NCBI GenBank assembly: GCA_017474845.1
Contig: JAFVGS010000052.1
Location: 1 to 51,545, forward strand
Direction of reading: 5' to 3'
Length of the DNA: 51,545 bases
Source of the DNA: Prevotella sp.
GTDB lineage: Bacteria; Bacteroidota; Bacteroidia; Bacteroidales; Bacteroidaceae
The translations under genes and the position numbers were made by a program. Each line of letters opens with the position of its first letter. The stretch's first letter is position 1. The notes under the pieces were generated by a model, which saw nothing but the letters and a program-made list of their open reading frames with translations, was not told the origin of the DNA and did no database searches. This document shows positions 45,216 to 50,080 of this stretch, piece by piece.

Positions 45216-48200
45216 ATGAGGAGAGTAATACTGGGCTTACTGGTGGGACTTGCCTCGTTGACTGCCGTGGCGCAGAAACACGGTGAATCGTCCCCTCGCA
45301 CCTTGCAATATGAGCCAGGTGCGGGGGGAACCTTTATCTGTACGAATGGCAATAACCGTTATACCCGTGCCCTTTATGGCAGTCATTCCGATTGGCGTCT
45401 GGAGACATCCGACCGTCCAGTATTTGCGGCGGTCAAGAAGGGATATCATCGAAATATCCAGATGGAAGTCAATGGCGTGCCACTTGACTCTACGGCGACA
45501 TGCAAGGCACAGTATCGCGACGGAATAAGATGGTATGTCCTGAACGACAACCGATGGCATTGGTCGCTTGATGTCGTCGTTGTAGCATTACCCGATGAAG
45601 AGGGAGCCGTATGGTGCATCTCGAAGACTGCTGACTGTACCGATACAGATGCGCAGAAGGAGCCGTTGCAGGTAAGGGTGATTACCAGTAGGATAGCGCA
45701 GCCGAAACTCAATCGCAATGGTGACATAGGCGCAGACCCTCCAGGCGTTTTCGAAGCATCACCTGATGATACTGCCAGGGTGGTGAGCCATGCCATCATG
45801 AGTGATGACGGTATGATGGCCTTTGTCGTCGTCAAGGTCAATGAAGTGGTTGACATGCCCTATCAGAAAGCCTATAGTCTCTTCTGGAAGTCTGTTGACT
45901 ATTACAAGCAACTGGCCTCGCGCATCCAGTTTCATACCCCCGATCCTTATATCAACACCCTCGGAGGGGCTTTGGTCTTGGCTGCTGACGGCGACTGGGA
46001 CGGACAGACGTGGCTGCACGGCTGTATCGGATGGCGTATGCCCTTGGCGGGTTGGCGGGCAGGATATTTAGGCGATGTGCTGGGGTGGAACGACCGGGCC
46101 GTCAGCCATTTCGATGCCTACGCCAAGAGTCAGGTGACGGACGTCGAACCTGTGATTCCACATCCCTCGCAGGACTCGGCGATGAATCAGGCGCGGGCCG
46201 AGAAGAGGTGGGGTACGCAGATGTATTCCAACGGCTATATCTGTCGTAATCCGGAGCGCAACGACCAGATGCTCCATTACGACATGAACCTGAACTACAT
46301 CGACGAACTGCTGTGGCACTTCCAGTATGATGCCGACACGGTCTATATGCGAAAGATGTGGCCTGTACTCAAGTCGCATCTGGTATGGGAGAAACGTAAC
46401 TTCGACCCCGACGGAGACCATCTCTATGACGCCTATTGCTGTATCTGGGCCAGCGATGCCCTCTATTATAGCGGCGGGGCGGTCACCCATAGTTCGGCCT
46501 ATAACTATCGTGGCAACAAACTGGCAGCCCGTATCGCGGAGATCATCGGCGAAGACCCGCAGCCCTATCGTGACGAGGCAGAGGCTATCCTTCAGGCGAT
46601 GAACAGTCGTCTGTGGCTCTCCGACAAAGGTGTATGGGCAGAGTATCAGGATGCTCTGGGAATGAAACGCACCCATGACCATCCGGCTGTGTGGAGCATC
46701 TATACGCCTATCGACTGTGGTGCCTGTACGCCCGAACAGGCTTATAGGGCCACACAATACATCGACCGTTACATCCCTCACATCCCTGTTGAGAAGACAG
46801 GCCTCTATACCATCTCCACTTCCGACTGGATGCCCTATTCCTGGAGCATCAACAATGTGGCTGCGGCTGAGGTGATGCACACCGCGCTGGCTTATTTCGA
46901 GGCAGGACGTTCTGAGGAGGGCTATCGGCTGATGAAGGCCAACATTCTCGATCAGATGTACTACGGCCAGAGTCCGGCCAACTTCGGACAGATCAGCCAC
47001 TACGATGCGGCCCGTGGTGAGTGCTATCGTGACTTCGGCGACTGCATCGGCATCAGCAGCCGGACGCTGATTCAGGGACTTTTCGGTATTATTCCCCAGG
47101 CATTGGACGGCACGTGTATCATCCGTCCAGGCTTCCCCTCAGACTGGGATTCTGTCCATGTGAAGACCCCTTATCTGGAATATACGTTCAGGCGGGAGAA
47201 TGGCCGTGATATTTACGACATCACCCAACATTTCCGTCAACCCCTGAAGATCATCCTCCGTCAGAATCTTTCCCACGGTGCCTATCGCGATATCGAAGGC
47301 ACCTCCGATGCGCACCAGGTAATATTTTCCCCTCCTAAGTTAGGAGGGGTGCCCGAAAGGGCGGGGTGGTCTGAACAGGGGCAAGAGTCTGCGGCGGATC
47401 AGACCCCCTCTGACTCCCCCTACTCAGGGGGAGAACTGGCGGAGCCAGACCCCTCTGCGCCCTTTCGAACAGTAAAGCTCGACAAATATTTCAACGCCTC
47501 CGTCGCCGACATCTTCCGCAACGACTACCTCTCTCCCCGTCCCCAGACCACCACTCTCCAGATTCCCATCCAAGGCATCGGCGAATGGTGTCATCCCCAA
47601 AAGACCGCAGAGATCAACGACTCCGTTTTCCGCACGAAAATCTCCAAAGGTATCTTCCGCATGGCAGGTGTCCCTCTGTGCACCCCGGCAAAAGGCCGTA
47701 ACATCATCTATACCAGTCTTTGGGACAACTATCCTGACTCCGTAGCCATTCCCTTGAAGGGCAGGGCAGCGCGTGCCTATCTGCTCATGGCTGGCTCGAC
47801 GAACCACATGCAGAGCCGGATTGACAACGGTCTGGTGGTCGTCTCCTATACCGACGGGACAACCGATACTTTGGCACTCAGGAACCCCGACAACTGGTGT
47901 CCCATCGAGCAAGACTACTATATCGACGGAAAAGCCTTTTGCGCTCCTGAGCCCAGGCCGTACCGTGTCTGTTTCGGCACGGGTGACGTCAGCCGGGACC
48001 TCAGCAGCGTCGTTCGTCTGGGAGGTGAGTATGGCCGTGATATCCCAGGTGGGGCAGGTCAGATGCTGGTGATGTCGCTAAACCCTGAAAAACAATTGAG
48101 AGCGCTCACGCTCAGAACGCTCTCAAATGATGTCGTGATAGGCCTCATGGCCCTCACTCTTTCCCCTCCTGAGTTCTTGCGTCCCTTCGGTAGCAAGCGG

Positions 48201-48326
48201 CAAAGCCGAGCGGGAGGGGACAGGGGTGGTCTGATCACCCTCTATTTCCCCTCGTACCATTCTTTAAGAACGAAGAATGCCTTCTTCTTCTCGCCCTTGT
48301 CGCTGACGAGGCCCTTCATGTTGTAG
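45216..48326 (+). CDS. Exported DUF4450 protein with glycosidase-like (alpha/alpha) barrel, enlarged by repeats
   Basis: This 1036-residue protein starts with a signal peptide (MRRVILGLLVGLASLTAVAQ). Residues about 20-230 match the DUF4450 type (GTFICTNGNNRYTRALYGSH, DRPVFAAVKKGYHRNIQMEV). Residues about 240-640 resemble an (alpha/alpha)6 glycosidase barrel (LAADGDWDGQTWLHGCIGWR, NGYICRNPERNDQMLHYDMN, YCCIWASDALYYSGGAVTHS). A beta-rich C-terminal part follows. The substrate is unknown; its place at the end of the GH28-rha operon suggests rhamnose-containing oligosaccharides. A palindromic repeat at 47327-47460 adds about 45 residues (PPKLGGVPERAGW...SPYSGGELAEPD). A second one at 48161-48240 lies at the 3' end and carries the frame 85 bases into the convergent GH2 gene. 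The unextended protein probably ended near residue 980. Confidence 0.8.
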   Translation: MRRVILGLLVGLASLTAVAQKHGESSPRTLQYEPGAGGTFICTNGNNRYTRALYGSHSDWRLETSDRPVFAAVKKGYHRNIQMEVNGVPLDSTATCKAQYRDGIRWYVLNDNRWHWSLDVVVVALPDEEGAVWCISKTADCTDTDAQKEPLQVRVITSRIAQPKLNRNGDIGADPPGVFEASPDDTARVVSHAIMSDDGMMAFVVVKVNEVVDMPYQKAYSLFWKSVDYYKQLASRIQFHTPDPYINTLGGALVLAADGDWDGQTWLHGCIGWRMPLAGWRAGYLGDVLGWNDRAVSHFDAYAKSQVTDVEPVIPHPSQDSAMNQARAEKRWGTQMYSNGYICRNPERNDQMLHYDMNLNYIDELLWHFQYDADTVYMRKMWPVLKSHLVWEKRNFDPDGDHLYDAYCCIWASDALYYSGGAVTHSSAYNYRGNKLAARIAEIIGEDPQPYRDEAEAILQAMNSRLWLSDKGVWAEYQDALGMKRTHDHPAVWSIYTPIDCGACTPEQAYRATQYIDRYIPHIPVEKTGLYTISTSDWMPYSWSINNVAAAEVMHTALAYFEAGRSEEGYRLMKANILDQMYYGQSPANFGQISHYDAARGECYRDFGDCIGISSRTLIQGLFGIIPQALDGTCIIRPGFPSDWDSVHVKTPYLEYTFRRENGRDIYDITQHFRQPLKIILRQNLSHGAYRDIEGTSDAHQVIFSPPKLGGVPERAGWSEQGQESAADQTPSDSPYSGGELAEPDPSAPFRTVKLDKYFNASVADIFRNDYLSPRPQTTTLQIPIQGIGEWCHPQKTAEINDSVFRTKISKGIFRMAGVPLCTPAKGRNIIYTSLWDNYPDSVAIPLKGRAARAYLLMAGSTNHMQSRIDNGLVVVSYTDGTTDTLALRNPDNWCPIEQDYYIDGKAFCAPEPRPYRVCFGTGDVSRDLSSVVRLGGEYGRDIPGGAGQMLVMSLNPEKQLRALTLRTLSNDVVIGLMALTLSPPEFLRPFGSKRQSRAGGDRGGLITLYFPSYHSLRTKNAFFFSPLSLTRPFML
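47327..47460. repeat. Composite palindromic element inside the DUF4450 coding sequence
   Basis: Three perfect hairpins stand in a row: CCCCTCCTA/TAGGAGGGG (47329-47337, 47341-47349), GCCC/GGGC (47351-47362) and CTCCCCCT/AGGGGGAG (47414-47421, 47426-47433). The frame stays open through all of it. The CCCCTCCT start and GGGGTGGTCTGA segment recur at 48161-48240. Confidence 0.85.
48161..48240. repeat. Second palindromic element of the same family at the DUF4450 3' end
   Basis: CCCCTCC (48163-48169) pairs with GGAGGGG (48213-48219), with an inner CTTGC/GCAAG stem, and GGGGTGGTCTGATC follows. TTTCCCCTCCT-GAGTT and GGGGTGGTCTGA agree with the element at 47327-47460. It ends at the last base before the GH2 stop codon. 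Confidence 0.8.
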
Positions 48327-50080
48327 AAGTCCTGGATACCGGGCAGCACCCTTCTCGGCGAACGGAAGTCCTTAAGTATCCACGGCGTGGTACCCGAGAG
48401 ACCGTCGATCTTGTCGATCATGGCGAGGTTCTCGCGGTAGAGGTTCTCCTGGAACTCCTCCGTCCAGCGCTGGTTCTTGGGACCGTGGTAGCCGTATTTC
48501 GCACCACCGCCGAACTCGCTGATGATGACGGGCTTGTTGTAGGGAATCTCCCACGTCATCTTCGGCGCATCGTTCACGTCGCGATACCAGCCCACGTACT
48601 GGTTGAATGATACCACGTCGACATACTTGTTCATATTGTCGTTCAGGCGGTTCACGTAGTTGGCGGCACCCGTCACCTCCATCGCCATCGAAATCAGTCG
48701 GGTGGAGTCTTGTGTGCGGGCGTACTGTGCCAGACGTCCGAGGAAGTCGTCACGCTGGGCAGAGTGGGGCGTCTCGTTGGCGATGCTCCAGATGATGATG
48801 TTGGCGCGGTTGTGGTCGCGGCCGATCATATCCGTCAGCTGCTGCTTGGCGTTGGCGAAGGTGGCGGGGTTCGTCCAGGCGATGGTCCAGTAGACGGGAA
48901 TCTCCGACCACACGAGGATGCCCATACGCTCGGCCTCGCGTACCATATATTCATTATGCGGGTAATGGGCCAGTCGCACGAAATTACACTCCAGTTCCTT
49001 GGCCCACGTGAGCAGCTGGTGGGCATCTTCTGTGGAGTTGGCTCGTCCGCCGCCGTTAGCCTTCTCATCGTGGATGCTGATGCCCTTGAGGAAGATGGGC
49101 TGGCCGTTGAGCAGGATCTGCTTGTCGCGTGTCTCGATGGTGCGGAATCCGATCTCGTCGGCGATGGTCGTCGCGTCGTCGAGCGTGATCTTCACCTGAT
49201 AGAGCTTGGGGTTCTCAGGGCTCCAGAGCGACAGCTTTTTTGATGGACAAGGAATAATGGATAATGGACAATTGCCGTCGGCATCGGTGGTGACGGTCTG
49301 TTTGATTTTCAGTTCGGGGATGCTCAGGGTAATGGCATGTCCAGCCTCCTTCTTATTCAGCTTCGCGGTGAAGCTGATCTCCCTCAGCTTTTCACCTTTT
49401 CCCCCTTTCACCTTTTCCAATTGCACATTGTAGTTCTCGAGATACACGGGTGTCACCTTCACCAGCTTCACGTCGCGGGTGATGCCGCCGTAGTTCCACC
49501 AGTCGAAGATCTGTGTGGGCACATCCTCGGCGTGGCGCTTGTTGTCCACCTTCACGATGACCGTGTTCTCGCCCTCCTTCAGCATGTCCGTGACGTCGAA
49601 GTTGAAAGGTGTGAATCCGCCGACGTGATGCCCGGCCTCCTGACCGTTCACCCACACCCGGCAGTCGTAGTTCACCGCCCCGAAATACATTAGGTATCTA
49701 ACTCCCCCTCCTTGGGAGGGGGCTGGGGGGAGGTTCCAACTCTTCTTGAACCATACGGTTCCCTCATAGAAGAACAGTCTCTCGTCCTGCGTGTTCCAGT
49801 CTCCGGGAATCTGCATCGTGGTCGACTTGTCGAAGTCGTACTCGATGAGGTCTTCGGGCTTCTGTGGCTTCGCGTTGCGGAAGAATCCCCAGGGCGTGGG
49901 GTTCATGCGGTAGTCGTAGTAGCCTTCCTCCTGCACGTCTACGATGTAGTTCCACTCGCCGTTGAGCGACAGGCTCTCATAGGCGTTCACGTTCTGTATC
50001 ACCGGCAGCGTCTCGGCTGCGGCAATCGCCGGGAGAAGTACTCCCGCAACGGCGAAAAAAAGTTTCCTGATTTGTCTCAT
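48242..50080 (-). CDS. Exported GH2 glycoside hydrolase, beta-glucuronidase/beta-galactosidase-like
   Basis: This 612-residue protein has a signal peptide (MRQIRKLFFAVAGVLLPAIA). The sugar-binding jelly-roll is followed by an Ig domain and a TIM barrel. The acid/base Glu is in WSIANETPHS near residue 434 and the nucleophile Glu is in IISEFGGGAKYG near 521. HDEKANGGGRA and FVRLAHYPHNEYM are typical of beta-glucuronidases in GH2. In this setting it may remove terminal glucuronate or galactose from pectin side chains. Three foreign-looking stretches lie in frame in loops: PPAPSQGGGVR, KVKGGKGEKL and PLSIIPCPSKKL. Each maps to a repeat (49704-49736, 49388-49418, near 49243-49276). The 3' end overlaps the enlarged DUF4450 frame by 85 bases. 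No promoter box was found before it; it may be read from the epimerase promoter. Confidence 0.87.
   Translation of the reverse strand: MRQIRKLFFAVAGVLLPAIAAAETLPVIQNVNAYESLSLNGEWNYIVDVQEEGYYDYRMNPTPWGFFRNAKPQKPEDLIEYDFDKSTTMQIPGDWNTQDERLFFYEGTVWFKKSWNLPPAPSQGGGVRYLMYFGAVNYDCRVWVNGQEAGHHVGGFTPFNFDVTDMLKEGENTVIVKVDNKRHAEDVPTQIFDWWNYGGITRDVKLVKVTPVYLENYNVQLEKVKGGKGEKLREISFTAKLNKKEAGHAITLSIPELKIKQTVTTDADGNCPLSIIPCPSKKLSLWSPENPKLYQVKITLDDATTIADEIGFRTIETRDKQILLNGQPIFLKGISIHDEKANGGGRANSTEDAHQLLTWAKELECNFVRLAHYPHNEYMVREAERMGILVWSEIPVYWTIAWTNPATFANAKQQLTDMIGRDHNRANIIIWSIANETPHSAQRDDFLGRLAQYARTQDSTRLISMAMEVTGAANYVNRLNDNMNKYVDVVSFNQYVGWYRDVNDAPKMTWEIPYNKPVIISEFGGGAKYGYHGPKNQRWTEEFQENLYRENLAMIDKIDGLSGTTPWILKDFRSPRRVLPGIQDFYNMKGLVSDKGEKKKAFFVLKEWYEGK
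49243..49276. repeat. In-frame ATGGATA/ATGGACA word repeat in GH2
   Basis: The words GATGGACAAG, AATAATGGATAATGGACAATTG belong to the same family as 3068-3099 and 5333-5361, in opposite orientation relative to the window but the same strand sense within a GH gene. They encode LSIIPCPSKK in the minus-strand protein. The boundaries are approximate. Confidence 0.6.
49388..49418. repeat. In-frame CTTTTCACC word repeat in GH2
   Basis: CTTTTCACCTTTTCC and CCTTTCACCTTTTCC stand in tandem. They encode the basic linker KVKGGKGEK in the minus-strand protein. Confidence 0.7.
49704..49736. repeat. Short palindromic element in the GH2 coding sequence
   Basis: CCCCCTCC (49704-49711) pairs with GGAGGGGG (49715-49722) around a 3-base loop, then CTGGGGGGAGG follows. 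It encodes PPAPSQGGG between two predicted strands (WFKKSWNL and VRYLMYFG). Confidence 0.75.

Follow-up and report, generated by a model that had tools for sequence, protein, structure and literature searches.

In the genome of a Prevotella sp., several perfect hairpins lie inside a long open coding sequence, which raises the question whether this segment is an old part of the encoded protein or a mobile repeat that is read as codons. The locus belongs to a stretch of 51,545 nt (contig JAFVGS010000052.1), here called the window, to which all coordinates without a contig or locus name refer. In a sequence-only reading, the segment had been described as three consecutive perfect hairpins occupying about 134 bases (47327 to 47460) and carried in frame within an open coding sequence. 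The following features were distinguished:

45216 to 48326, + strand: host gene, 1036 aa, loosely matched by fold to (alpha/alpha)6-type glycan enzymes
47318 to 47436, + strand: palindromic element, GGTAATATTTT CCCCTCC ... GGGGGAGAA, edges approximate
47329 to 47349, + strand: hairpin 1, CCCCTCCTAAGTTAGGAGGGG, arms CCCCTCCTAA-G-TTAGGAGGGG, perfect
47351 to 47362, + strand: hairpin 2, GCCCGAAAGGGC (GCCC-GAAA-GGGC), present in only a subset of copies
47368 to 47405, + strand: central stem, GGTCTGA (47368-47374) with TCAGACC (47399-47405), long-range, around a 24-nt spacer
47414 to 47433, + strand: hairpin 3 (right half), CTCCCCCTACTCAGGGGGAG, arms CTCCCCCT-ACTC-AGGGGGAG
47437 to 47467, + strand: native linker, LAEPDPSAPFR, resuming 3' of the element
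48163 to 48234, + strand: second copy of the family, starting at the point where the orthologs of the host gene stop (..VIGLMAVTLQ*)
48170 to 48212, + strand: nested structured cassette, TGAGTTCTTGCGTCCCTTCGGTAGCAAGCGGCAAAGCCGAGCG, within the apical loop of the second copy's hairpin 1

The copy in the window is a composite palindromic element, and the frame is open throughout the 1036-codon gene, as had been claimed. Three hairpins are present and all are perfect, but they are not strictly consecutive; a palindromic element does lie at the place described, but its true extent is about 47318 to 47436. Homology with the native LAEP linker fixed the right edge; positions 47437-47460 are assigned to this linker, as a similar LxEPDxxxPF is retained by orthologs that lack the element. 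The match of 47458-47467 to 47354-47363 over 10 nt looks incidental. The predicted coding product of 47318-47436 is about IFSPPKLGGVPERAGWSEQGQESAADQTPSDSPYSGGE. Folding of 47320-47475 gave z-scores of -5.89 as DNA and -4.05 as RNA, with 0 of 200 dinucleotide shuffles equally stable in each case. Since orthologs end (..VIGLMAVTLQ*) where the second copy begins, the ORF in the window is extended into that copy.

The naming of the host as a DUF4450 enzyme was not upheld, because the Pfam match reached 24.4 bits against a cut-off of 27; an MGH1-like match was likewise below its cut-off. The predicted structure resembles (alpha/alpha)6 glycan enzymes loosely, with a TM-score by query of 0.23-0.39 among the matches listed. 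An AlphaFold2 model built on 25 sequences leaves the insert unstructured (pLDDT 34, 27 and 26 in residues 711-740, where the thin alignment also depresses confidence) and places it directly after strand 700-705 of a confident beta domain. Contrary to what had been supposed, the insert follows the last strand of this domain in the model and does not interrupt it; it lies in a variable linker that is predicted to be disordered.

Orthologs of the host gene were found in 99 of 200 genus genomes, the closest (92% identity) in genome G160. Linkers were compared at 30 loci, the window itself included, all within genus genomes. Among the 29 other loci, the same copy occurs in the closest ortholog (L165, G160) only, one ortholog (L169) has a different, related-looking insert at the linker, and 27 have a variable native linker and no element. 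The alignment with homologs lacking the insert, which the earlier reading had called for, thus places the native linker alone in 27 of 29 loci, and the insert is therefore no ancient, conserved portion of this protein. In L165, the DUF4450-like gene has an additional palindrome (CATGGGGACTGTCCCCGTG), also in frame, which follows the element and precedes the native linker.

A search for further copies, also called for earlier, was positive in the genome of the window (G000; 2.15 Mb in 93 contigs, 58.9% complete). BLAST returned 44 pieces at E<=1, weak and both-strand ones included, and the 12-nt tail GGGGTGGTCTGA had 33 exact copies versus 0 for the reversed control. An exact half-element pattern, which misses diverged copies, was present in 28 of 398 genus genomes, while the control matched once in all 398. 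Exact-pattern copies numbered 26 in the window's genome, 98 in G160 (one genome with G226), 22 in G234, 20 in G298, 16 in G090, 15 in G321 and 12 in G414. By BLAST, the element was found in 6 of 60 genomes (the window's included), all within one of 25 genera. A scan of named genomes yielded at least 116 stretches with the element; among the 80 listed, 78 are titled Prevotella, Prevotellaceae or Bacteroidaceae, one is titled uncultured bacterium and one Gracilibacteria, the match in the latter being without the hairpin. Genome bins named RUG are of rumen origin. No match to the element was obtained in the plasmid and phage collections searched. The family occurs in Prevotella-type gut bacteria, with dozens of copies per genome.

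Full-length copies consist approximately of GGTAAYNNTTTCCCCTCCTGAGTTAGGAGGGGTTAGGGGTGGTCTGAACA, a spacer and TGTTCAGACCCCCTCTGGCTCCCCCTAACTTAGGGGGAGAAANRGTTACC, measure 107-119 nt with 12 nt on each side, have GGTAA/TTACC-like ends and fold stably; among genic copies, solo halves of about 45 nt are frequent. Spacer lengths cluster near 12, 23, 35 and 47 nt, in steps of about 12 nt. When both strands of three copies were folded, four of the six strands formed three stems (one with an additional outer stem) and both strands of the copy in L072 folded into one long rod; the z-scores of these folds were -5.6 to -6.4. The inner pair of hairpin 1 (n=99) is A..T in 53 copies, G..C in 22, G..T in 24 and A..C in 0, and that of hairpin 3 (n=30) is A..T in 22, G..C in 5, T..A in 1 and A..C in 2. 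Judged from these alternatives, compensatory changes are present in hairpin 1, and also in the nested cassette described below. The excess of G..T over A..C in hairpin 1 hints at folding of this strand of the half-unit; the A..C mismatches of hairpin 3 indicate the other strand, and the hint is for this reason not extended to the whole element. Little compensation was seen in the central stem, where the left-side T was paired with A in just 2 of 12 copies. Covariation in this stem was weak over 28 copies, where 209 of 5000 shuffles reached the value of its best position and the other two positions gave nothing notable; over 92 copies, 75 were complementary versus a shuffle mean of 65.6. Covariation of this stem was set aside because 73 of those 75 are the common A..T.

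Placement relative to genes was determined for 41 sites in the genome of the window, of which 28 lie in frame inside open genes and 13 are intergenic or at gene ends. The ORF filter had given 31 genic sites, and three (window 48160-48235, C55:22776 and C23:9685) were recounted as gene ends or chance ORFs. As this filter counts open ORFs only, a broken gene would land among the 13 non-genic sites, which were judged via ORFs ending at the element edge; judged in this way, no gene was seen to be broken by a copy. Host proteins above NCBIfam cut-offs are Lon, TsaD, HisIE, RNase R, MurF-Alr, MenD, HflX and HypD (trans-4-hydroxyproline dehydratase). Further hosts are LptD, a UvrD/PcrA helicase, RsmF, GH106, GH9, GH25 and GH43/DUF6055 proteins, C10 and M15 peptidases, DUF3987- or BT4734-like proteins (one of them below cut-off) and a GH2 enzyme; its GalB match and the GH106 equivalog match are below the NCBIfam cut-off. 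TsaD, MurF, Alr and LptD are usually essential. Solved homologs of RNase R, TsaD, alanine racemase (L043), HflX and HypD have nothing that aligns with the insert, and the predicted junction peptides are SIRRISPPESGGAR in RNase R and EADQTTPSPSYSGGE in HypD. Conceptual translation gives SPPELGGVRGGLN in one orientation and VQTTPNPSYSGGE, FRPPLTPPNSGGE or SDHPAHPGTPPNLGGE in the opposite one, and the element probably adds a flexible stretch to its host proteins.

Individual hosts differ in how the site is filled. Six peptidase genes that look alike (L012, M15 by Pfam, and L046, L056, L070, L081 and L147) have the element in roughly the same place, and in L012-like genes of several genomes it often occurs as two inverted halves. 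In MenD, positions 6694-6912 of L091 hold two tandem forward copies, an inverted copy and part of the nested cassette. All of these are in frame, and the corresponding place in MenD of the window's genome has one hairpin only.

Frame retention was analysed in 148 distinct clusters (window's genome and the 116 stretches) from codon-usage scores of both flanks, with no open frame presupposed; none of the resulting figures is a probability, because the copies are related and neither pairs nor copies are independent. Both flanks are coding on the same strand in 49 clusters, and 35 of these share a single frame that stays open. The frame entering the other 14 from upstream ends before the element, at its edge or inside it, the stop often being the TAA of the element's GTAA edge, and there is a start codon further downstream; from these stop and start positions the 14 read as intergenic. 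The remaining clusters are coding on opposite strands (7), on one side only (64) or on neither (28). After random insertion of copies into ORFs in silico, 10-13% stay open. Length differences between orthologous filled sites were non-zero in 19 of 24 genic pairs and in 3 of 4 mixed pairs (one side open), and 22 of these 22 are multiples of 3 versus 4 of 10 for non-genic pairs, multiples of 3 being forced in the genic class since it is defined by open ORFs. A frame-broken copy would show up in the mixed class, and none of the three differences there is a frame break. Between filled and empty sites, multiples of 3 made up 16 of the 17 differences in the genic class, all 6 in the mixed class and 4 of the 9 in the non-genic class, at least two of the sites taken as empty (L161 and L037) being actually filled.

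These data bear on the idea that expression eliminates the insert, in an intron-like or intein-like manner or by ribosomal bypassing, for which the strong hairpins within coding sequence and the otherwise intact hosts can be cited. Because a removed segment needs no frame, the retention of frame in 35 clusters found without presupposing it counts against removal, as do the lack of clear genic disruption and the search of five loci in Rfam, where no match exceeded the gathering score (best 28.9 bits versus 79); we regard removal or bypassing as very improbable.

Among the 35 in-frame clusters, 21 have the element in the opposite orientation only, 8 in the same orientation only, 5 in both, and 1 has the other half only. 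The 20-nt version of the hairpin has two open frames in the opposite direction and none in the same direction, and the orientation pattern fits survival of open frames. Alternatively, the palindrome could be kept for a function at the DNA or RNA level (mRNA stability, terminator, nucleoid or gyrase site), its genic place being incidental. Stable folds on both strands and the intergenic copies at gene ends agree with such a function, but genic copies are found either way round, differ widely in length from one ortholog to the next and are missing in most relatives read, which makes it improbable.

Movement of the family can be read from site comparisons. The Alr domain of MurF-Alr holds a copy in L043 and is empty in the window's genome, with flanks 92.5% and 90.5% identical; in filled and empty pairs the linkers are too diverged for clean boundaries or a target-site duplication to be read. 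A private 23-nt motif occurred 13 times in 4 of 11 genome records. In the 10 contexts read it always takes the same position in hairpin 1, on the arm next to the tail, and replaces about 4 bases; two pairs of contexts look orthologous, leaving about 8 distinct sites. The presence of this private cassette at about 8 sites implies movement, since either the composite would have been copied as a unit or the cassette would have re-entered the same spot. On these sequence comparisons the element family moves, and the proposal of a mobile, protein-altering repeat is supported by the many copies, the empty Alr site and the private cassette. Of the two outcomes named beforehand as refuting it, neither was encountered: the genome has further copies, and among the genus genomes compared the peptide is not shared at the site beyond the closest ortholog. 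A second cassette, also present at 48170-48212, sits at the apex of hairpin 1 in the 11 loops listed; its stems were complementary in 10 of 10 examined (CTTGC/GCAAG, CTTGGC/GCCAAG, CTTTGC/GCAAAG and CTTTG/CAAAG). The cassette of the second copy in the window has only 5 exact copies in the genome.

All element-bearing records examined are drafts, mostly titled MAG or uncultured, and the repeats could in principle be artefacts of assembling metagenome bins. Separate bins share the same filled sites (MurF-Alr in L036 and L043, Lon in L018 and L155) and the frame is kept, and the probability of an artefact is considered negligible.

The full-length TsaD gene was read in 25 loci, that is 24 genomes (L215 and L216 are one genome). 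Its loop is short in 16 of the 25 loci and longer in 9. It holds the element in the window's genome and in L206, a different palindromic repeat in L207 (G225) and yet another palindrome in L217 (G083); the inserts of L207 and L217 are G+C-rich and not kin to the element. The TsaD motif of G225 has 4 copies in that genome and 2, 3 and 6 copies in three others, and with the element and the G225 repeat this one loop has therefore received at least two unrelated repeats. The G083 palindrome has one exact copy only and was not counted as a further repeat. What appears to be new here is the nesting of other hairpin cassettes within hairpin 1 and the presence of two repeat families in a single loop of TsaD.

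Other palindromes were noted in passing. A 17-nt palindrome, CCCCTCCTTGGGAGGGG, lies in frame at 49705-49721 in the GH2 gene at 48242-50080 (- strand), where it codes for part of PPAPSQGGG and resembles another palindrome family (CCCCTCCCTTGGGGAGGGG). Yet another family, CCCCTCCCCAAGGGAGGGG, was seen at L036:829-915 (C89:119929-120014 in the window's genome) and in L031 (C12:34957-34975); the L036 pair lies in an ORF, and the L043 ortholog has a different native sequence there (94 and 86% flank identity). We tentatively suggest, with more doubt than conviction, that a set of palindromes inserts into one another and into exposed protein loops, that sites such as that in TsaD are refilled by at least two unrelated families, and that an undescribed mobiliser, possibly acting on single-stranded DNA, would be responsible.

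REPINs are described as inverted REP doublets linked to RAYTs (PMC3116915) and REPs as mostly extragenic (PMC3116915, PMC3733652), with REPs inside ORFs reported in several species, where GTAG ends supply stop codons (PMC3733652). Like these, the repeat is an inverted, hairpin-capable doublet of small palindromes with a spacer, with stop-supplying ends and some ORF copies; unlike them, it is genic at 28 of 41 sites in the window's genome. In 177 copies, the commonest bases by position about 10 to 7 bases 5' of the hairpin are G, T, A and then A/T, so that GTAA or GTAT stands in place of the GTAG/CGTC foot tetranucleotide.

A strict REPIN would be a pair of REP units in inverted orientation, mobilised by a RAYT (Y1) transposase of the same genome. 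The doublet with its spacer, the GTAA or GTAT near the foot, the element edges that often give the stop codon of the upstream gene, the RAYT-like genes of the window's genome, and the 24 G..T against 0 A..C of 99 in hairpin 1, as expected if that half-unit strand folds, all speak for this reading. Against it, the GTAG tag is replaced, and the two A..C copies of hairpin 3 would place the wobble on the other strand. The mobiliser search comprised PF01797 in the window's genome and ten genome records, tblastn of two RAYT proteins and a HUH motif scan of loci. Y1/RAYT genes were present in the window's genome and in 6 of the 10 records (5 of 9 genomes, G160 and G226 being one) and were not found in four element-bearing drafts (G027, G035, G227 and G228). 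In 0 of 14 Y1/RAYT loci from these incomplete genomes is a RAYT gene flanked by the element; the flanks of L194, L198 and L199 were covered by the motif scan. L199 alone holds a copy, which lies in an adjacent gene at a distance of about 1.2 kb; L203 has an 8-nt match only. The RAYT flanks read carry other repeats (TAACAGAGGGACGGTTCTTTTGTTA; CTGACAGGGGACAGGTACCTGTCAG), and no parent transposon with matching ends was found in the Y1/RAYT loci searched. Taken as a strict REPIN, the repeat would be rather unlikely to be correctly described. The Y1/RAYT-like genes of the window's genome lie at C24:1752-2111 (L041) and C55:9688-9849 (L042), and the former is flanked by its own inverted repeat TAACAGAGGGACGGTTCTTTTGTTA, likely a separate REP family.

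Bacterial MITEs such as the 107-bp Correia/NEMIS and ERIC are described as short, non-autonomous repeats with terminal inverted repeats that form ORF fusions (PMC2229807). The Prevotella repeat shares the TIR-like ends, the shortness, the non-autonomous character and the ORF fusions, and differs in that neither a target-site duplication could be read nor a parent transposon with matching ends found. The closest architecture is that of the Rickettsia palindromic elements (RPEs) to which it had been compared from the start. RPEs are described as 105-146 bp long, with terminal inverted repeats, in frame in 19 protein genes (PMC2229807), and as lying between genes and in frame in unrelated conserved genes, with several families per genome (PMC2229807, PMC10969869). 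The comparison stands: the Prevotella repeat is likewise a palindrome in the range of about 100-150 bp (full copies 107-119 nt) with terminal inverted repeats, many in-frame copies in unrelated protein genes and intergenic copies in addition. It differs in its Prevotella-group hosts, in the many genic solo halves of about 45 nt, in a spacer that grows in steps of about 12 nt and in the cassettes nested in hairpin 1. For RPEs, translation is described for one protein, the RPE-bearing and active Gmk (PMC2229807), while in the Prevotella family it is inferred. By analogy of architecture and placement rather than of sequence, the Prevotella family would work like RPEs. Among the titles and abstracts of the best-ranked matches in open-licence PMC articles, no report of an in-frame palindromic repeat in Prevotella or Bacteroidales was found. 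It is chiefly in Rickettsia and its relatives that palindromes read in frame within genes are known.

With its repetition, its in-frame placement, its absence from most orthologs read, the shared private cassette and the compensatory changes, the element is very probably a non-autonomous mobile palindromic repeat whose genic copies persist if they lie in frame in tolerant loops or linkers, where they would be read as codons. A repeat of about 107-119 nt (solo halves about 45 nt), folding as three stems or one long rod, would spread in Prevotella-type genomes and enter intergenic and genic sites alike. Frame-breaking genic insertions would be purged and in-frame ones in tolerant loops or linkers would remain, and the surviving genic copies would be translated into a Pro/Gly-rich flexible peptide that the host protein tolerates. 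The movement itself may depend on an enzyme acting in trans, perhaps via single-stranded DNA. The peptides might instead form an adaptive, domesticated linker module that improves enzymes. The same site is indeed filled in related species with a changing internal structure (Lon, MenD, MurF and GH2), but the proteins are unrelated, the peptide differs by frame and orientation, and it is absent from the enzymes of most relatives read, and we give little credence to this alternative.

A mobile palindromic repeat of this kind would place coding palindromes in a widespread group of gut bacteria and in genes that are usually essential. Related species differ in the sites that are filled and therefore provide natural pairs with and without the insert (Alr domain, TsaD and the DUF4450-like enzyme), which offer a route to testing the tolerance of proteins for added segments and a start for finding the mobiliser. 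Programs that call genes or predict structures will encounter mobile DNA within core proteins, which calls for caution. If a set of palindromes does insert into exposed loops and into one another, there would be an ongoing supply of new disordered protein segments in core enzymes.
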